Positions 2,068 through 14,885 of a stretch of DNA of 64,000 bases are shown in pieces (positions within the stretch are counted from its first letter, which is position 1; each line of letters starts with the position of its first letter). The notes below the pieces were generated by a model that searched no databases, had not been told where the DNA came from, and saw only the letters and a program-made list of their open reading frames with translations. The DNA is from Caldichromatium japonicum (GTDB taxonomy: Bacteria > Pseudomonadota > Gammaproteobacteria > Chromatiales > Chromatiaceae), in NCBI RefSeq assembly GCF_011290485.1, contig NZ_CP048029.1:2800501-2864500 (forward strand), read 5' to 3'. A program made the translations under genes and the position numbers.

Positions 2068-3036
2068 TTGATAAGAAACACATGCTTTTGAAATTGAGTG
2101 AGCTGTCCTGATGTCGTGGGCATGGAAAGACGAGACATGAGATTGCTGTCGTTTGCGGCGCGCGAAGGGGCCCAAGGGCTCAAGGAAAGGTGGGTGAGAA
2201 GCGGGCGCTGTTGGCGGAGCAGGACGCCCAGATACGCAAGCTCATGTGCGACGGGACACCGGATGAGCTGAAGCTGCCGTTTGCGCTGTGGAGCCGGCAG
2301 GCGGTGCGGCAGTTGATCCTCGACCGTTTTGGCATCGAGCTCAGGCCGCAGGGGGAAGGCAAGTACTTGGCGCGCTGGGGATTGACGCCCCAGAAACCGA
2401 TTCGGCGCGCCTATGAGCAAAGCCCGCCGGCGGGCAAGACGTGGCTTGAGGAGACCTACCCGGACATTGCCCGGCGCGCCAAGGCCGAGGGCGCCGAAAT
2501 CCACTGGGGCGATGAAACGGGGCTGCGCTCGGACGAGGTGCGCGGGCGCTCTTATGCGCCGGCGATCAAGACGCCCGAGATTCGCGTCACGCACCGTCGC
2601 GAAGGCCTGTCGGTGATCTCGACGCTGACCAACCGCGGCAAGGTGCGTCGGAAGGCGTTCGCGGGGGCGATGAACGCCGACATCCTGATCGACTTCATGA
2701 AGCGGCTCGTCAAGGACGCCAGGGGCAAGAAGATCTTCCTCATCCTCGACAACCTGCGCGTGCATCACACCAAGCCGGTCAAGGCCTGGCTGGCTGCATG
2801 CGCCAATCAAATCGAGGCCTCCTCCCTCCCCTCCTACAGCCCAGCACTGAACCCCAACGAGATGCTCAAGGCCACCATCACCGCGCAGGCGCCCTCCCGC
2901 GCCAAGGGCGATCTGAAGAAGGCGACCGTCAGCCACCTGCGCCGCCTTCTCAATTCCCCCCAACGCATCATGCGCTACTTCCAGCATCCCAAGCTCCATG
3001 ATGCCACGTAATACAAGTTCATTGGTTTCGGATCAA
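2068..3036 (+). mobile_element. IS630-family element, copy 1
   Basis: Imperfect terminal inverted repeats begin TTGATAAGAAAC on the left and, read inward from the right, TTGATCCGAAAC. Both ends are flanked by TA (2066-2067 and 3037-3038), as expected for IS630/Tc1-type insertion at TA. The element is 969 bases, nearly identical to 13689-14685 and in the same orientation. It is shorter because of a small extra deletion near the transposase start. Its left neighbour is the region upstream of the tnpB remnant; its right neighbour is the truncated RCC1-like gene. Confidence 0.92.
2190..3011 (+). pseudogene. IS630-family transposase, N-terminally truncated
   Basis: The 273-residue product begins at GTG and carries the DDE triad of IS630 transposases: Asp in HWGDETGLRS, Asp in LILDNLRVHH, and Glu in the YSPALNPNE block. 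The N-terminal helix-turn-helix of full-length relatives (about 340 residues) is missing. Upstream, an out-of-frame stretch reading MERRDMRLLSFAARE looks like the original N-terminus, joined by a deletion to the linker before RGRRK. The catalytic domain looks intact, but the protein probably cannot bind element ends normally, so I treat it as a defective gene. Confidence 0.8.
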
Positions 3037-3038
3037 TA

Positions 3039-3984
3039 GATCGCTTATCCCCAAGCTGGCCATACCAGTTGTTGCCCCACAAGGCGAGTTGTCCATCAGC
3101 CAGTTGCGCCAGTCTATGCAGGCTGCCTAAGCGCACGGCAGTTGCCTGGTACTCAGGAGGACCGATGGTGACCCGCACCGGTGCAGCGCTGGGCAGGAGG
3201 CTGCCATTGCCGAGTTGACCATAGTCATTGTTGCGGCCCCAGGCCCACAGGCTGCCGTCTTCGGTATAGGCCACGACATGCCATTCATTGGCATTGATCC
3301 CTTTGACCCTAAACTCACTTAAAGCGGTCACCTTGACCGGCACAGTCTCGATATCCGTAGCGGCACCGAGACCAAGCTGCCCCTCCCTGTTATTGCCCCA
3401 GACCCATAGCTGACCGTCGCTGGTGATCGCAAAGCTTTCCGCATAGTCGGCCGCGGCGGCGGTGACATTGGATAAACGGCTGACCTGCACGGGGACCCCC
3501 GACCACTCCCCCCCAGCCCTTGCGCCCATTGCCAAAGCGCCCATAGTCACCTAGGCCCCATACCTAAAGCGTCCCATCCGAGCGCACCGCCAGGCTATGA
3601 AACTGACCGGTCGCAATCGCCGCCACACCCGTTAGATTCATCACTTGAACAGGTAGGGGACGATCGGTTTTGGGTCCCGTCACCGAGTACACCCCACTCA
3701 TTTTGACCCCAGCCCCAAACCGTACCGTCGGCGCGCAAGGCCAATGTATGATTGGCCCGGGCAGCGATCGCGACGACATCGGTCAGACCCTTGACCCGAA
3801 CCGGCAGGCCGCTGAATAGACCTGCCCCTGACTGACCAGTGCCGAGCTGACCAAAGGTGTTATCGCCCCAGGCATACACCGTCCCATCGCTATGGGGCGC
3901 CACCGAGTGTTTCTCACCGGCCGCAAGCTGGGGGGTAACGGCCTCAGACACGGCCGACCCCAGCTCTAGACCAGTGAGCAGCAT
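3039..3984 (-). pseudogene. RCC1-repeat (seven-bladed propeller) protein, broken
   Basis: RCC1 blades are evident: SDGTVYAWGDNTFGQLGTG, ADGTVWGWGQNEWG, RSDGTL, SDGQLWVWGNNREGQLGLG, EDGSLWAWGRNNDYGQLGNG and DGQLALWGNNWYGQLG. A hydrophobic N-terminus (LLCIGMLLTGLELGSAVSEA) suggests export. The reading frame shifts after NEWGV, a TAG replaces the expected Trp codon after SDGTL (stop at 3564), and another frameshift precedes VPVQVSRLSNV. The 3' end is cut by the IS630 element at 3037. Bacterial RCC1 proteins are often secreted or surface-associated; the original role is unknown. Confidence 0.85.
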
Positions 3985-4170: not shown

Positions 4171-7100
4171 TTGAACATCGGTATCCAGATGCAGATGGCA
4201 CCTCCTCAGTCTCTATCCCCCGAGATCCTAATCCCGGTCTTCAACGCCTATGAGTCGGTCAAACGCTGTGTGCACAGCGTGCTGCGCTATACGCCGATCG
4301 ATTGCCCCATCCGCATCCTCGATGATGCCAGCACCGATCTGCGCCTCTTGGCTTGGCTCGATGAGTTGGAACTCAAGGAGCCGCGGGTTAGGCTGGAGCG
4401 GGCGGATGAAAACCTGGGCTTTGTCGGCAATGTCAACCGGGGGCTGGCAACGGCCCAGGGTGATGTCATCGTCCTAAACTCAGATACCCTGGTAACCCCC
4501 AGCTGGGTCGAGCGATTGGTCGAGTGCGCCGCAAGCGACCCGCAAATCGGCATCGTCTGTCCGCTTTCAAACAATGCGACCATCCTCTCGGTCCCTCTGA
4601 TGAATGGGGATAATCCCATCCCCGATGGGCTGACGGTCGACCGTTTCGCAGCCCTGATCGCCGCACACAGTGCCCGCCGCTACCCGCGTCTGCCGGTAGC
4701 GGTGGGCTTTTGTATGTTGATCCGGCGAGCGGTGATCGATCGTCTCGGCCTTTTGCATCGCGCCTATCACCGCGGCTATGGCGAGGAATGCGACTATTCA
4801 TTGCGTGCCTGGGAGGCGGGATTTGCGGTGGCCTGTTGCGATGAGGCATTCGTTTATCACCAGAGCGAACAAAGCTTCGGCGCCGTCTTAGGCATGACCG
4901 AGATCAAGCAGCGCAACGAGGCGGTCCTCTTGAGCCGCTGGCCCTTTTATCATCACCTGATCCGCCGCTTTTGTCAGCTCAATCCGTTGCGCGATGTCCA
5001 AGAACGGATCCTAACCGGCCTGGCAGAGGCCCGCGGCGACCGCGCGCCCCATGTCCTCTACGTCATCCATGCCTATCACAGCCTAGGCGGCACCGAGCTG
5101 CATTCGCGCGCGCTCATGGAGGGTCTGGCCGACGAGTATCGGATGACCCTGGTCTTTCCCGACGAGACCGACCCCTATCGCGATCTTCAGTGTATCGAGG
5201 AGGATGGACGCCTGCGGGTATTGGCCTATCAACGCGCCCTGATCGAGGGGGGGCCGCGGCTGTTTGGTCAGGTCATGAGCCTGCGCAACCCGGCCGTCGA
5301 GTCAAGCCTTGCCCGGCTGATCGCCGGCGGTGCGATCAAGCTGGTCCATTTTCAGCATCTCCTGGGCTGGGGGAGCCTGGAGCTTCCGGTGATCGCGCGC
5401 CGTCTAGGGGCGGCGGTGGTCTTAAGCTTGCATGATTATTTCTTATTCTGTCCTGTATTTGACATGCTCCGGCCCAAAGGCGAGCCCTGCGGCAGGCCAT
5501 GCGTTGATCCCGACGACCCAGGGTGTCTGGATTGCTTGAGACAACAGGCTTCGATCGATGAGGATGAATGGCGTCCCTTCCTGCACGCGCGTCGCCAAGG
5601 GCTGTTGGCGATCTTCGAGGCCGCCGATGCGATCATCGCCCCCTCGCGTTTTGTCTTGCAGCGCTTTATCCGCGCCTATGGCGAGGCGCTGGCGTCCAAG
5701 GTGCGGTTCATCCCCCATGGCCTGCCTGATCTGGGATCGCCCCTGCCGCCCAAACGCGCCCAGCGTTTTCGAATCGGTGTCTTTGCCAATCTGACCCGCC
5801 GTAAGGGCGCTGAGCGCCTGCTGGAGACCCTGGCGCTCCTTCAACGGCGGCGGGATCTAGAGGTCCTGCACTTTGGCGGCGTTGAGCCGGTCTATAAGGA
5901 CGCCCTGGTGGCAGCAGGTGTGGGGCTCAGGGGGGTCTATCGGCATCAGGACCTCAGGCGTCTCGTCGCTGAGGTGGATCTCGCCCTGGTCCCCTCGGTC
6001 TATGAGGAGACCTTTTGTTTGACGATCGCCGAGCTTCAGGCACTCGGGGTGCCGGTCTTGACCTTTGCGGTCGGCGCCATCCCCGAGCGAATTGCCGATG
6101 GGATCACAGGGTTCTTGGTCGATGAACCCAGCGCCAAGGCCTTGGCGGCGCGCATCGAGGAGCTCATCGCCATACCTGAATTGGTGCAGCAGGTCCGCGC
6201 CTCTTTGCGTCAACAGCGCTACAGGCGGCTCGATGAAAACCGGCAGGACTATGCCGCCTTGTATGAGCAGTTGCTGGGGGAAGTGGCGGGACGGCCAAGC
6301 GTCCCCTTGGAGAGGGTGATCGCTGAGCTGGAGGAGCAGGGGGCCATCGTTGAGATGTCAGCCGCCCTGCCCGAATCCTTCATGCCGGGGTGGTGGATCA
6401 GGCGAGAGGGGCACCTGCGCAAGGGTCCGCTCGCCAAAACGTCGGTCCCTTCCCTGTCTCCTGCCGCCTATGGCTCAGGCGAAGAGCGGCGCTGGATTGT
6501 GCTTGTGGGGGGTGAGGAATCGCCCTGTGGTCTGCAAAGACAGACAAGCGCCGGTCTAGACCTGTTGCTGGTCATCCTGGAGGTCGAGGAGGATCCTGAC
6601 GCCTTGGCCAGGACCTTAGACTCACTCAGAACGGGATGGGCAGGCAGGCTGCGTATCCTGATCATCAGCCCTCCAGTCTCTGCCTCCGCGGAGGGGAGGG
6701 AAGGGACCCAGCCTGCGGCCTACATTGAGCCATCCTCCTCCCAGACATTCTCCTCCCAGAGGGCAGGGCGCGATCTCGCCTGCACCTGGCTGCGGCTCAG
6801 CCCCAGACAATCGGCGGTGCGCCTGATCAATCGCTGGATCGCCGCACAGACAGGCGATTGGATCGGCTGGATGAAAGCTGGTGACCAGCTTCACCCCTCT
6901 GCTCTTTATCTAATCGCCGACTGGAGCAACCGCCATCCACACTGGCAGTTCATCTATACCGATGAGGATCGGATCGCCGAGGACGGTCGGCGTTATCAGC
7001 TGTGTTTTAAACCAGACTTTGACCTGGATCTGTTGCGCTCCCAGGCTTATCTCGGCGATCTCTGTCTGATCAGACGCGAGGTCTTTTTGACATGCGCTGG

Positions 7101-9249
7101 CCTGACGCCAGCGCTTGAGGTGGCCCAACTTGATCTGTGTTTAAAGGTCGTCGATGCCTATGGCGAAGCAGCCATCGGGCACATCCCGCAGGTCCTTTAT
7201 CATCGCGCCGATTGGCGTCCTTACCGGCCCCCTGACTTTGAGTCGATCAGCAAGGTCATTGCCTCGCACTTTAAACGGCGTGCTCTGCGCGCCCTGATTC
7301 GCCCGACCTCGTTCGCTGGGATCTATTGGGTCGATTATCCCCGAAACCCCAAAAACCAGACGGCGCTGGTGATCCTCACCTGCGGGGATACCCAGGCGGT
7401 TGCTGACCTGATCCAGTCGGTCCAGCCGTCCATCGATGCCAAAGAGGTCCTAGTCCTCGATTTCAAACGCCAGGGGAGCGCTGGGCGCCCTCGATGGCCG
7501 GATCCTCACTGCCGCTGGCAAGGCGCTGAGGGTCCGCTCGCCCGTTCGCTCAACCGCGCCATCCGCCGCCTGCGATCGGAGCGGGTGCTGGTCATGCATG
7601 ATGGCCTGCGCGCCCGGCCCAATTCGGCGCTCTCCATCCTACTCGGCCTGATCGATCGGCCAGAGGTCGCCTTGGTCGGACCCTGTCTCCTGGACCCACA
7701 GGGGCGCATCCTCCAGGCCTATCCGCTCCTCGGCTTTTGGCCCCTCGGCGCCCTGGGCCAGGTGCATCGCGGTCACAGCCTGGCTGAGACCGGCGGCCCT
7801 CTCAATCGCCATCTCTGTGTCCAGCGTTGTGCGACGGTCTCGGATCAGGCATTTATGCTGTGGCGGCCTGCCTTCCTCCAGGCAGGTGGATTTGCCGAGG
7901 AAAACTTTGCAAATGCCTGGTGGTTGCTCGATCTGGGGTTGCGACTAGGCCAACTGGGCTATCGGGCCCTTTGGGCCCCGCATGCTACCCTGTTTGCAAG
8001 CGCAACCGGCAGTTTTCAGGGTTATCGCCGACGACTGCTCAAGGATCTGAGGATCGCTGAAGAGACCGCGCGGCTCTATGGGCGCTGGCTGCCGCAACTT
8101 GCCCGCGATCCGGCCTATCATCCCCATTTGAGCCTGCGTCGCTTCGATGCCCGACCTGAGACCGAGATCCGCCTCAGCTGGGATCCAGAGCGCTGTCTTC
8201 TCCCGCGGTTCCTTGGTTTTCCAGGCGATCTGACAGCCAGCGGTCATTATCGGGTGATCGATCCCCTCTCGGCCTTGCATACCCATGGCCTGGCCTGTGT
8301 CACTTGGATCGATCCAGACCCCGGGATCCGCCCGCCGAGCGTTGTCGAGCTCGAACGCCTGCAGCCGGATGTCCTGCTTTTACATAATGCACTCCATGAC
8401 CGACACCTACAGGCCCTTGAGCTGTATCGGCATTACAACAGGGCCAGGCTGGTCTTTACCCTCGATGACCTGATCACTGATCTTCCCCCCTGGAACCCCT
8501 TTAGGCAGACCAATTACCCAGATCTCGATCGCCGCTTAACCCGCGCGCTTGGCCTCTGCGACCGGCTGCTGGTCAGCACCCCGCTGCTTGCCGAGTTTTA
8601 TGGCAGCCGGCATGCGGATATCCGGGTGGTGCCGAATCGTTTAACCCGCACACGCTGGCAGGGCCTGGCCGATCTCGCCGAGTCGATGCGAGAGTTCGGG
8701 TGTCGGCCGCGGATCGGCTGGGCGGGTGCGGGGCAGCACCTGGGTGATCTCGAGTGGCTGCTGCCGGTCGTCGAGGCCCTGGCCAGGGAGGCCGATTGGT
8801 GTTTTTTCGGCATGTGTCCAGATGAACTCAGGCCCTATGCCGCCCAGGTCCTGCCGATGGTCGATTTTGCCGATTATCCAAAGACCCTCGCTCGGCTAGG
8901 GCTTGATGTTGCAATCGCCCCCCTGGCGTTGCATGATTTCAACCGCTGCAAAAGTCCGCTTAAGATCCTAGAATATGGCGCGCTCGGTCTACCGGTGATC
9001 TGCACCGATATCGAGCCCTATCGCGAGGCACCAGTCGAACGCCTGCCCAATCAGCCCGACCTCTGGATCGAGGCCCTGCGCGCACGCCTAGCCGATCGAG
9101 AGTCGGCCCGTCAGGAAGGCAGGCGGCTTAGACACTGGGTCGAGTCCGGCTGGATGCTAGAGGATTCTCTCGAAACCTGGATCGAGGGGTTGTCGTTTTT
9201 GGGCAACAAGCCGCCAGACACGTTTTCATCAGCACAGGGGGGAGAGTAA
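4171..9249 (+). CDS. Giant multi-module glycosyltransferase (GT2-GT4-GT2-GT2-GT4 layout)
   Basis: This 1692-residue protein has no signal peptide and is probably cytoplasmic. Residues about 17-270 form a GT2 module (ILIPVFNAYESVKRC, LNSDT as the DxD-like site, GYGEECDYSLRAWE). Residues 293-705 form a GT4 module (HAYHSLGGTELHSRAL; PSVYEETFCLTIAELQALG as the donor-site motif). Residues 797-1050 are a second, divergent GT2 (YTDEDRI, KPDFDLDLL). Residues 1062-1310 resemble a third GT2-like part, and 1345-1690 a GT4-like module (LDDL, SPLKILEYGALGLPVI). The TTG start has AGGA 9 bases upstream; an ATG at 4189 lacks one. The next gene starts 2 bases after the stop. It probably builds a multi-sugar chain; donor and acceptor are unknown. 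Confidence 0.85.
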   Translation: MNIGIQMQMAPPQSLSPEILIPVFNAYESVKRCVHSVLRYTPIDCPIRILDDASTDLRLLAWLDELELKEPRVRLERADENLGFVGNVNRGLATAQGDVIVLNSDTLVTPSWVERLVECAASDPQIGIVCPLSNNATILSVPLMNGDNPIPDGLTVDRFAALIAAHSARRYPRLPVAVGFCMLIRRAVIDRLGLLHRAYHRGYGEECDYSLRAWEAGFAVACCDEAFVYHQSEQSFGAVLGMTEIKQRNEAVLLSRWPFYHHLIRRFCQLNPLRDVQERILTGLAEARGDRAPHVLYVIHAYHSLGGTELHSRALMEGLADEYRMTLVFPDETDPYRDLQCIEEDGRLRVLAYQRALIEGGPRLFGQVMSLRNPAVESSLARLIAGGAIKLVHFQHLLGWGSLELPVIARRLGAAVVLSLHDYFLFCPVFDMLRPKGEPCGRPCVDPDDPGCLDCLRQQASIDEDEWRPFLHARRQGLLAIFEAADAIIAPSRFVLQRFIRAYGEALASKVRFIPHGLPDLGSPLPPKRAQRFRIGVFANLTRRKGAERLLETLALLQRRRDLEVLHFGGVEPVYKDALVAAGVGLRGVYRHQDLRRLVAEVDLALVPSVYEETFCLTIAELQALGVPVLTFAVGAIPERIADGITGFLVDEPSAKALAARIEELIAIPELVQQVRASLRQQRYRRLDENRQDYAALYEQLLGEVAGRPSVPLERVIAELEEQGAIVEMSAALPESFMPGWWIRREGHLRKGPLAKTSVPSLSPAAYGSGEERRWIVLVGGEESPCGLQRQTSAGLDLLLVILEVEEDPDALARTLDSLRTGWAGRLRILIISPPVSASAEGREGTQPAAYIEPSSSQTFSSQRAGRDLACTWLRLSPRQSAVRLINRWIAAQTGDWIGWMKAGDQLHPSALYLIADWSNRHPHWQFIYTDEDRIAEDGRRYQLCFKPDFDLDLLRSQAYLGDLCLIRREVFLTCAGLTPALEVAQLDLCLKVVDAYGEAAIGHIPQVLYHRADWRPYRPPDFESISKVIASHFKRRALRALIRPTSFAGIYWVDYPRNPKNQTALVILTCGDTQAVADLIQSVQPSIDAKEVLVLDFKRQGSAGRPRWPDPHCRWQGAEGPLARSLNRAIRRLRSERVLVMHDGLRARPNSALSILLGLIDRPEVALVGPCLLDPQGRILQAYPLLGFWPLGALGQVHRGHSLAETGGPLNRHLCVQRCATVSDQAFMLWRPAFLQAGGFAEENFANAWWLLDLGLRLGQLGYRALWAPHATLFASATGSFQGYRRRLLKDLRIAEETARLYGRWLPQLARDPAYHPHLSLRRFDARPETEIRLSWDPERCLLPRFLGFPGDLTASGHYRVIDPLSALHTHGLACVTWIDPDPGIRPPSVVELERLQPDVLLLHNALHDRHLQALELYRHYNRARLVFTLDDLITDLPPWNPFRQTNYPDLDRRLTRALGLCDRLLVSTPLLAEFYGSRHADIRVVPNRLTRTRWQGLADLAESMREFGCRPRIGWAGAGQHLGDLEWLLPVVEALAREADWCFFGMCPDELRPYAAQVLPMVDFADYPKTLARLGLDVAIAPLALHDFNRCKSPLKILEYGALGLPVICTDIEPYREAPVERLPNQPDLWIEALRARLADRESARQEGRRLRHWVESGWMLEDSLETWIEGLSFLGNKPPDTFSSAQGGE

Positions 9250-9251
9250 CC

Positions 9252-10700
9252 ATGAGTCGGATCAAGGCACCTCAGGCCGCGGTCAGTGCGGCCATCCTCG
9301 GGATGGCCTGTTATGGTCAGGGGACGGAGTCAAACGCAGATGCAGTGCTTGTGCCAGGTAGACAATTGTTCGCCGCTGTCAGTAATACAGCAGCGCCGCT
9401 GGCAACGAGCACAGCGCCGGATGAATCCACGGTCCTTGCCAGTGGCGCGGCCCTCGATCAGGCAGCGGCCTCGACCAGCAATACCAATACCCAAGGGGTG
9501 GCGGGGACATTGTTCCACGCCTGCCACAGCGGTGCCAATGTGGGAACCGTTTTCCAGAGCGACTGCGATCTCTTGCTCAGGGGCGCGACGCAAGACCCTG
9601 CGGGGGTCGCCCAGGCCCTGAGCGTCCTGACCCCAGATCAAGTCTTGGCCCCGCGCAACGAGTCGGTCCAGCAGGTCAGCGCCGGGTTGGGTGTGGTCTC
9701 CATGCGACTGGAGGGACTGCGCTCAGCAGCCCGCGATCAGGTCTCGGTGACATCATTGGCCGCTCAGATGTTGCGCCAGGCCACTGGCGGCGGTGCGAGC
9801 GCGGACCTTGACCTGGGTCGCGGCGGCCTCTTTTTTAATCTCAAATATCTCGACACCGAACAGGATCGCAACCGCTATACCTCGGGCTATGATCAGGATG
9901 GCCTGCGCCTGACCCTGGGTGCGGATTACCGGGTCCAGGACAATCTCATCCTGGGTCTATTTGCAAACTACGCCTCGGCCGATACCAGCTATTGGCTCAA
10001 CAAGGGCGGGATGGATACCACGACCTGGGGCCTGGGGCTCTATGGGACCTATTACTGGGACAATGGGTCATTCATCGAGGGCTCGCTCGGCTATGACACC
10101 CATGACTATGATCTGACCCGCCGGCTCGATTACAGCATTGTGGTCGACGGGGTGAGGACCCAGGTCAGACAGCTGGCGATATCCGACCCCGATGGCCGGA
10201 CCTTCTATGCCAGCCTCGGCGGCGGTTACAACCTCGATGTCCAGGCATTCACCTTAATGCCGAGCCTAAAGTTCAACTATCTGCGCAACCATCTAGATTC
10301 CTATCACGAGCGCATCTCTGATCCGAGCGCACCGGGTGGAGGCATGGGGCTCGCCTTTGATTCGCAGACCTATGAATCCTTCACCTCGCGTTTGGGATTT
10401 ACCATCGCCCGCGCCTTTAGTTCAGGGGTCGGCGTTTGGGTCCCGCAGCTGAGCCTCGATTGGGTCCATGAGTTCTCAGCAGACCAAAAGCAGCTGGCCG
10501 CGCGCTTCGTCAATGACCTAAGCGCAACACCGCTGGCCCTCACCACCTCCAGTCCAGACCGCAATTATTTTGACCTGGGAATTGGTCTGGCCGGTCAGTT
10601 CGCCCAGGGCCGTTCGGCATTTATCTCGATCAATAAGCTCTTGGGCTACGAGGATATCGAGCACTACAGCATCACTGGCGGGGTGCGGATGGAGTTTTAA
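9252..10700 (+). CDS. Autotransporter-type outer-membrane beta-barrel protein
   Basis: The 482-residue product has an N-terminal hydrophobic stretch (AAVSAAILGMACYG) that may be a signal peptide. A short Ala/Ser/Thr-rich region of about 150 residues follows, with a Cys pair around CHSGANVGTVFQSDC. A helical linker (LSVLTPDQVLAPRNESVQQV) leads into about 280 residues of alternating aromatic beta-strands ending GGVRMEF, the terminal Phe typical of outer-membrane barrels. This matches the autotransporter barrel family with an unusually short passenger. It starts 2 bases after the giant glycosyltransferase stop, so the two are probably co-translated. The short passenger could be the glycan acceptor, or the protein may be a porin-like component; both ideas are inference. 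Confidence 0.85.
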   Translation: MSRIKAPQAAVSAAILGMACYGQGTESNADAVLVPGRQLFAAVSNTAAPLATSTAPDESTVLASGAALDQAAASTSNTNTQGVAGTLFHACHSGANVGTVFQSDCDLLLRGATQDPAGVAQALSVLTPDQVLAPRNESVQQVSAGLGVVSMRLEGLRSAARDQVSVTSLAAQMLRQATGGGASADLDLGRGGLFFNLKYLDTEQDRNRYTSGYDQDGLRLTLGADYRVQDNLILGLFANYASADTSYWLNKGGMDTTTWGLGLYGTYYWDNGSFIEGSLGYDTHDYDLTRRLDYSIVVDGVRTQVRQLAISDPDGRTFYASLGGGYNLDVQAFTLMPSLKFNYLRNHLDSYHERISDPSAPGGGMGLAFDSQTYESFTSRLGFTIARAFSSGVGVWVPQLSLDWVHEFSADQKQLAARFVNDLSATPLALTTSSPDRNYFDLGIGLAGQFAQGRSAFISINKLLGYEDIEHYSITGGVRMEF

Positions 10701-13688: not shown

Positions 13689-14685
13689 TTGATAAGAAAC
13701 ACATGCTTTTGAAATTAAGTAAGCTGTCTAATTATAGTGGGCATGGAAAGATTATAGTGGGCATGGAAAGACGAGACATGAGATTGCTGTCGTTTGCGGC
13801 GCGCGAAGGGGCCCAAGGGCAAGCGGGGTAGGCGCAAGGTGGGTGAGAAGCGGGCGCTGTTGGCGGAGCAGGACGCCCAGATACGCAAGCTCATGTGCGA
13901 CGGGACACCGGATGAGCTGAAGCTGCCGTTTGCGCTGTGGAGCCGGCAGGCGGTGCGGCAGTTGATCCTCGACCGTTTTGGCATCGAGCTCAGGCCGCAG
14001 GGGGAGGGCAAGTACTTGGCGCACTGGGGATTGACGCCCCAGAAACCGATTCGGCGCGCCTATGAGCAAAGCCCGCCGGCGATCAAGACGTGGCTTGAGG
14101 AGACCTACCCGGACATTGCCCAGCGCGCCAAGGCCGAGGGCGCCGAAATCCACTGGGGCGATGAAACGGGGCTGCGCTCGGGCGAGGTGCGCGGGCGCTC
14201 TTATGCGCCGGCGATCAAGACCTCCGAGATTCGCGTCACGCACCGTCGCGAAGGCCTGTCGGTGATCTCGACGCTGACCAACCGCGGCAAGGTGCGTCGG
14301 AAGGTGTTCGCGGGGGCGATGAACGCCGACATCCTGATCGACTTCATGAAGCGGCTCGTCAAGGACGCCAGGGGCAAGAAGATCTTCCTCATCCTCGACA
14401 ACCTGCGCGTGCATCACACCAAGCCAGTCAAGGCCTGGCTGGCTGCATGCGCCAATCAAATCGAGGCCTCCTCCCTCCCCCCCTACAGCCCGGCACTGAA
14501 CCCCAACGAGATGCTCAAGGCCACCATCACCGCGCAGGCGCCCTCCCGCGCCAAGGGCGATCTGAAGAAGGCGACCGTCAGCCACCTGCGCCGCCTTCTC
14601 AATTCCCCCCAACGCATCATGCGCTACTTCCAGCATCCCAAGCTCCATGATGCCGCGTAATACAAGTTCATTGGTTTCGGATCAA
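13689..14685 (+). mobile_element. IS630-family element, copy 2
   Basis: This 997-base element has the same terminal inverted repeats as copy 1 and TA on both sides (13687-13688 and 14686-14687). Near its left end a segment of about 20 bases (ATTATAGTGGGCATGGAAAG) is tandemly duplicated. On the right it abuts a tnpB C-terminal fragment; no tnpB sequence is present on its left. It therefore does not sit in a simple insertion. It is a direct repeat of 2068-3036. Confidence 0.92.
13794..14660 (+). pseudogene. IS630-family transposase, N-terminally truncated (copy 2)
   Basis: The 288-residue frame opens at TTG with the linker GPKGKRGRRK and then follows copy 1 closely, including the DDE residues in HWGDETG, LDNLRVHH and SPALNPNE. 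A handful of residues differ from copy 1 (for example PPAIKTW for PPAGKTW and QRAKAEG for RRAKAEG). It lacks the same N-terminal DNA-binding region as copy 1, so both copies appear to derive from one already deleted element. Movement would need an intact transposase elsewhere, as judged from domain content only. Confidence 0.8.
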
Positions 14686-14686
14686 T

Positions 14687-14875
14687 AATGCCGCGCTCAA
14701 CCTCAAACAGCTGGCAACCGCAACTGCCCTACCCGGGGCGAGTCCGTCCGGTAACGGCGGCGCTACAGCAGAGAGGGTCTCTGCCGTAGTCGGGAAAGTC
14801 ACGCCTGTCAGAGACGAATGCGCTCCGCATTCGGGGCAGGAAGAGAACAGTGCGCCTGTTTGCGCACTGTCTTGA
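14687..14875 (+). pseudogene. tnpB-like C-terminal fragment
   Basis: The 63 codons reading NAALNLKQLATATALPG through to VCALS and a stop match the C-terminus of the tnpB remnant at 1145, on the opposite strand. The fragment begins directly at the TA flanking IS630 copy 2. The rest of the gene is not on the far side of that element. Confidence 0.88.
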
Positions 14876-14881
14876 GAGCAG
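14687..14881. repeat. Right 195-base inverted repeat of the island
   Basis: This is the reverse complement of 1139-1333 with a few substitutions, including CTTGAGAGCAG at its outer edge. It stops 4 bases short of the glmU stop codon at 14886-14888, so both island edges are the same element end facing outward. Confidence 0.9.
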
Positions 14882-14885
14882 GGAC

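Follow-up and report, generated by a model that had tools for sequence, protein, structure and literature searches.

In the 64,000-nucleotide stretch of the Caldichromatium japonicum genome analyzed here (the window, G000:C1:2800501-2864500, from a single-contig genome of 2.99 Mb), a giant glycosyltransferase (GT) is followed on the same strand by an autotransporter-type barrel protein and, in convergent orientation, by a fusion of a radical SAM (rSAM)/SPASM protein with an Stf0 sulfotransferase. We tentatively favor a reading, to which we give somewhat less than an even chance, in which a flagellin-type GT has been re-targeted to the exported N-terminal segment of the barrel protein, with the fusion finishing the glycan. 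The barrel segment appears the likeliest acceptor because of its gene position and the ancestry of the GT. The open reading frames (4171-9249 and 9252-10700) confirm what a sequence-only reading of the window had reported, namely a GT of 1692 residues and a barrel protein starting 2 nt later.

A survey of 210 genomes of the order, with few GT candidates scored per genome (two to four, which means that second copies can be missed), identified a full-length GT in six (G000, G146, G147, G073, G119 and G019), and in all six the barrel gene lies directly 3' of the GT gene on the same strand. The full-length fusion is present in exactly the same six genomes; it adjoins the GT-barrel pair in five and lies on another contig in Thiospirillum jenense. 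Over the five genomes compared with the window, identity drops in parallel for the GT, the barrel and the fusion (71, 77 and 70% in G146; 68, 65 and 63% in G147; 63-70, 66 and 62% in G073; 58, 58 and 56% in G119; 51, 48 and 52% in G019, respectively). The genes outside the pair vary and include glmU, a type VI secretion FHA gene, an rSAM gene, fliW and a hydrolase gene. The gap between GT and barrel is -4 nt in L089 (taken as the G146 locus), 2 nt in the window, 38 nt in T. jenense, 42 nt in G073, 48 nt in G147 and approximately 33 nt in G119, where the barrel start is uncertain. A pattern-led scan of genome contigs from 84,980 species returned two full-length relatives among the best 80 of 144 loci, one in a metagenome-assembled genome of an uncultured Chromatiaceae (L089) and one in T. 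jenense DSM 216 (L090). No published set of GT, barrel and rSAM genes was found among open-licence papers. The expectation that the two proteins always co-occur was borne out in one direction, the GT being accompanied by the barrel in 6/6 genomes, but 67 of the 73 genomes with a barrel match (E<=1e-10) lack a full-length GT.

By sequence, the C-terminal core of the window GT (modules c, d and e) belongs to a giant flagellin-linked family, with module e shared by tblastn. In the class, 31 of 369 genomes had a match at E<=1e-80, the window's own included, with homologues 33-42% identical, and flagellin was found near the GT homologue in 24 of the 30 class loci, near being defined as a tblastn match at E<=1e-6 to a flagellin query identified by PF00669 within a stretch of 3-20 kb (for G364 and G426, a pair of adjoining stretches). 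Flagellin was not found near L203, L204, L208, L214, L225 or L231, the last three of which lie on contigs no longer than 10.6 kb. Distances were measured in 28 loci, of which 25 have flagellin (in-family L075 among them) and three do not, with L203, L204 and L231 left out; in 21, flagellin starts 100-988 nt past module e on the same strand. For example, the five-module relative of G364 (L201; 1771 residues) is encoded directly upstream of flagellin; among core relatives within the family, that of G012 adjoins flagellin, that of G084 does not, and that of G043 lies on a contig of 3.4 kb. In the cassettes, the barrel occupies this usual place of flagellin directly downstream of the GT. No flagellin was found within 20-30 kb of any of the six, and a flagellar gene, fliW, was found in T. 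jenense only.

A tree built from 45 core regions by a quick, non-bootstrapped search groups the cassette GTs of all six genomes in a single clade (SH-aLRT 100) that lies within flagellin-linked GTs, with L203 and L204 as nearest sisters (SH-aLRT 99). The two sister GTs adjoin Calx-beta proteins, not flagellin (L203:134-6761; L204:9503-19739). Both Calx-beta proteins share an NNDSF-type N-terminal motif and have Ser-rich or signal-like N-termini, with Ser-rich AGSSGD repeats in that of L203; they look exported and are candidates for acceptors of this GT family. The main rival explanation, that the GT serves flagellin in this organism, its gene having been displaced from fliC, and that the barrel is merely co-transcribed, draws on the same family ties, on the flagellin and FliD of the window's own genome, and on FliW adjoining the barrel in T. 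jenense. It also draws on the lack of a second GT match in the own genome at E<=1e-30 among the four of 21 candidates scored, although a flagellin-linked GT may lie upstream of the own flagellin. We nevertheless consider it unlikely, given barrel adjacency in all six genomes with no flagellin in reach, and a separate clade of cassette GTs whose nearest sisters also lack flagellin neighbors.

A precedent for a GT encoded upstream of its exported acceptor is provided by Pseudomonas syringae, whose flagellin glycosyltransferases are the products of fgt1 and fgt2, located upstream of fliC; rhamnose is attached to Ser by Fgt1 (PMC3927599; PMC3402453 also bears on location). The flagellin-linked relatives of the window GT show the same order of a GT gene upstream of a gene for an exported protein, a likeness of gene position. 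Unlike fgt1 and fgt2, the cassettes have no flagellin in reach, and their downstream gene encodes an outer-membrane barrel. The pair would act like flagellin GT-acceptor pairs, with a homologous core, but with flagellin, the usual neighbor, absent. The earlier proposal that the GT is dedicated to the barrel is partly supported, as the GT family usually adjoins an exported protein, flagellin, but the barrel is widespread without the GT.

Modules scanned separately against Pfam gave the layout GT2-GT4-GT2-GT2-GT4-like, in agreement with the estimate of about five GT modules, except that module d is degenerate and has lost its DXD motif. PF00535 matches module d at E 0.27 in the window GT versus 1.6e-24 in the L075 equivalent. 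All four aligned orthologues (window, L089, L090 and L062) carry HDG and LLD or MLD in module d, versus NND or DDD in five of six other homologues and DVD or DID in all six, respectively. Module d is probably non-catalytic. Hydropathy suggests that the GT is soluble (its highest mean over 19 residues is 1.73, within module b), and no stretch resembling a membrane anchor was found by this measure. An alternative start is provided by an in-frame ATG at 4189. In G073 (L062:7270-12262), a frameshift at six consecutive G, close to residue 675, interrupts the GT frame, which may reflect a sequencing error, decay or phase variation.

The BAHT autotransporter heptosyltransferases (TibC and AAH, paired with TibA and AIDA-I) have one GT-B-like domain and a four-Cys iron finger, form a dodecamer and act on a large passenger (PMC4358343). 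The window GT resembles these pairs in that its gene lies beside that of an autotransporter-type barrel in all six genomes, but it has five GT2/GT4 modules, and the barrel passenger spans only about 55 residues. No heptosyltransferase family is among the Pfam and NCBIfam matches listed for the window GT; by its domains, it is therefore not a BAHT family member, and the kinship with heptosyltransferase pairs drawn in the sequence-only reading was not upheld.

Tandem GT-A modules also occur in K4 chondroitin polymerase and heparosan synthase, and K4 polymerase was the best PDB profile match of the GT core. A structure predicted for residues 700-1692 (alignment of four) had a mean pLDDT of 43.5, with only parts of modules c and d at 60-80, and was rejected; the best Foldseek matches of this low-confidence c-d-e model were polysaccharide synthases, which provides weak support only. 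Unlike the dual-domain polysaccharide synthases, module d of the window GT lacks a DXD motif, and the similarity is at the level of the GT2 fold. The Foldseek matches would fit an alternative in which the GT and the fusion make a sulfated surface glycan (a lipopolysaccharide side chain or an exopolysaccharide) that the barrel exports or anchors, or to which it is unrelated, as would the T. jenense contig that carries, besides the fusion, a run of genes for a nonulosonic-acid-like sugar along with two giant GT paralogues. However, no Wzx flippase, Wzy polymerase or ABC exporter was recognized among the annotated neighbors beside the cassette, and the GT family sits beside flagellin, which is a protein; we judge this alternative improbable.

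The identification of the downstream protein as an autotransporter barrel stood (PF03797, E 1.9e-49; TIGR01414 above its NCBIfam cut-off), and its genome has no other PF03797 match. The Ser/Thr-rich passenger placed at residues 30-150 did not stand: only residues 31-85 are variable, with 13 Ser or Thr in 55 (24%, compared with 15% in residues 86-160 and 15% in the barrel), and the segment proposed as acceptor is mostly a conserved pre-barrel domain common to barrels without a GT (alignments of 11 homologues, then of six barrels linked to a GT and 16 without one). Like type Va autotransporters, the protein has a C-terminal PF03797 barrel with a terminal aromatic residue, but the folded functional passenger of that class is replaced by about 55 variable residues ahead of the pre-barrel domain. 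Its N-terminus is basic, then Ala-rich (best 19-residue hydropathy 1.07), and the start of the T. jenense orthologue is more clearly signal-like. An [ST]xxASG motif is present in the variable segment of 6/6 GT-linked barrels, versus an A63-S64 pair at that place in 0/16 GT-free barrels. A structure prediction for the barrel (alignment of three; mean pLDDT 31) was unusable, a tblastn search of plasmids gave 123 records, all below 60% identity and none covering 80%, which is uninformative, and there was no PHROGs match.

Barrels of this family are frequently associated with a different set of genes. An alpha/beta-hydrolase with a lipoprotein-like start was found in 66 of the 210 genomes and co-occurs with the barrel in 60 of its 73 (22.9 expected); VipB was found in 80 and co-occurs with the barrel in 52 (27.8 expected), the Fisher p-values for both ignoring the relatedness of genomes. 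The barrel and hydrolase genes lie within 10 kb of each other in 38 of the 60 genomes with both (42 on one contig), and the barrel and VipB genes within 50 kb in 30 of the 52 (32 on one contig), as measured from gene starts and excluding a number of short VipB fragments. Barrel neighbors elsewhere include ClpV, VgrG, DotU, FHA and kinase-FGE genes; examples of the barrel-hydrolase-type VI link are L064, L065, L066, L067, L070 and L189. The window barrel is 49% identical to the barrels of G076 and G105 and shares both its barrel and its pre-barrel domain with the short-passenger PF03797 barrels near type VI loci in the same bacterial family, and NTN with the closest of these. Unlike the window barrel, these have a hydrolase nearby and neither a GT nor an rSAM fusion. 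No published link between type VI secretion, barrel and hydrolase was found among open-licence papers. The barrel family is possibly an accessory outer-membrane module of hydrolase/type VI loci; its association with them places a barrel that otherwise lacks annotation in a context open to testing.

If the barrel belongs to that neighborhood, the GT could have landed beside it once, the two being inherited together ever since. In addition to the co-occurrence with the hydrolase and with VipB and the proximity to the hydrolase, this account would be consistent with the single clade of GT-linked barrels and with G119, which keeps hydrolase and FGE-domain neighbors. Nevertheless, the pair moved jointly to the glmU site and persists without VipB in five of the six GT genomes, although a chance neighbor would be expected to separate, and we regard the account as distinctly improbable. 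In the window's own genome, which has the hydrolase at 1.473 Mb, VipB gave no match, and type VI secretion was ruled out as an explanation of the barrel there because VipB is absent.

The fusion carries CDLKCAMC and RSGS in the window, and CxxxCxxC with RSGS is kept in all six genomes. Seven further genomes match the rSAM half only (approximately 400-440 residues, with no sulfotransferase part matched), and these shorter relatives are found in other contexts (L084 and L180-L182). On T. jenense contig C24 (L077, L085 and L086), two giant GT paralogues are followed further along by the fusion, and the gene run there is presumably one for biosynthesis of a nonulosonic-acid-like sugar, as named from first residues.

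In the mechanism that we propose for re-targeting to the barrel, a cytoplasmic multi-module protein O-glycosyltransferase would build a short oligosaccharide on Ser/Thr of barrel residues ~31-85 before export, with the [ST]xxASG motif as the best candidate site. The fusion would modify, probably sulfate, the glycan or the segment, and the barrel would then insert in the outer membrane and present the decorated segment at the surface. A bolder version, which we hold to be rather doubtful, is a three-gene system in which an acceptor-switched GT and the fusion put a sulfated oligosaccharide on the short peptide of a minimal barrel, so that a protein nearly devoid of a passenger would present a surface glycan, the Calx-beta sisters representing a second switch.

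Several observations weigh against this proposal. Tight coupling (2 nt or overlap) occurs in only two of the six genomes, and with gaps ranging from -4 to 48 nt the coupling put forward by the sequence-only reading is not conserved. The six GT genomes represent one clade of GT and one of barrel (support 90/87 for the latter); few independent events are therefore sampled, and the [ST]xxASG motif may reflect descent rather than selection. The closest GT-free barrels share the NTN portion of the motif. Ser and Thr account for 20-30% of the region equivalent to residues 32-85 when the barrel is GT-linked and for 4-35% when it is GT-free, with 24% and 33% in the two nearest GT-free relatives; since these values overlap, Ser/Thr richness is no acceptor signature and was dropped as proof. 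Module d looks dead and modules c and e are weak by Pfam. Finally, the own genome encodes flagellin and FliD at ~1.951 Mb (L273), and because the organism has flagellin, this protein could still be an acceptor.

Table 1. Positions in the window of the cassette genes, their domains and an adjoining gene.
Feature	Positions	Strand	Basis and remarks
Giant GT, 1692 aa	4171-9249	+	TTG start, stop TAA; ORF call and Pfam
Module a, GT2, residues 19-240	4225-4890	+	PF00535 E 7e-23; LNSDT motif kept
Module b, GT4, residues 306-690	5086-6240	+	PF13439/PF13692 E 2e-12/4e-22; EX7E at 613-621
Module c, GT2-like, residues ~780-1056	6508-7338	+	PF00535 E 0.02 (weak); DED at 931, aligned
Module d, degenerate GT2, residues ~1060-1300	7348-8070	+	PF00535 E 0.27 (not significant); DXD lost
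Module e, GT4-like, residues ~1345-1680	8203-9210	+	PF13692 E 9e-6, just under family cut-off; tblastn
Barrel protein, 482 aa	9252-10700	+	ATG 2 nt past GT stop TAA
Variable segment, residues 31-85, candidate acceptor	9342-9506	+	TVLASG at 9429-9446
Conserved pre-barrel domain, residues 86-160	9507-9731	+	Cys pair, LTPDQ motif; alignments
PF03797 barrel domain, residues 202-460	9855-10631	+	E 1.9e-49; C-terminal Phe, C-terminus RMEF
rSAM/SPASM-Stf0 sulfotransferase fusion, 916 aa	10778-13528	-	PF04055, PF13186, PF09037; convergent
Broken RCC1-repeat gene	2975-3984	-	Fragments adjoining IS copy

The surroundings of the cassette vary among genomes. The order in L089 is atp genes, glmU, an RCC1-repeat gene (- strand), GT, barrel and fusion (- strand), followed by a gene that we take to be glmS from its first residues. 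glmU also lies beside the GT in G073 and G147, and Pfam assigned glmU-type domains in both G073 and the window. Compared with L089, the window cassette block is inverted relative to glmU; inverted arms at 1136-1343 and 14677-14884 (208 nt, 95%) flank the whole cassette, and immediately within them are two IS630-like copies in direct orientation. The RCC1-repeat gene, broken in the window, is intact beside the cassette in L089 (974 aa, with DUF4214 and an InlB-type domain). The pair lies away from the glmU site in G119, with a hydrolase and an FGE-domain gene nearby, and in T. jenense, with a type VI secretion FHA gene upstream and fliW downstream. This fliW, a flagellin-assembly gene (PF02623; L090:16471-16896), directly follows the T. 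jenense barrel.

If the preferred reading is true, a giant protein GT family paired with its acceptor by gene neighborhood would have switched from flagellin to exported proteins unrelated to it, and comparison of the cassettes would show what defines an acceptor. The autotransporter heptosyltransferases would then have an alternative that adds several sugars, and the rSAM-sulfotransferase fusion would gain a candidate function.

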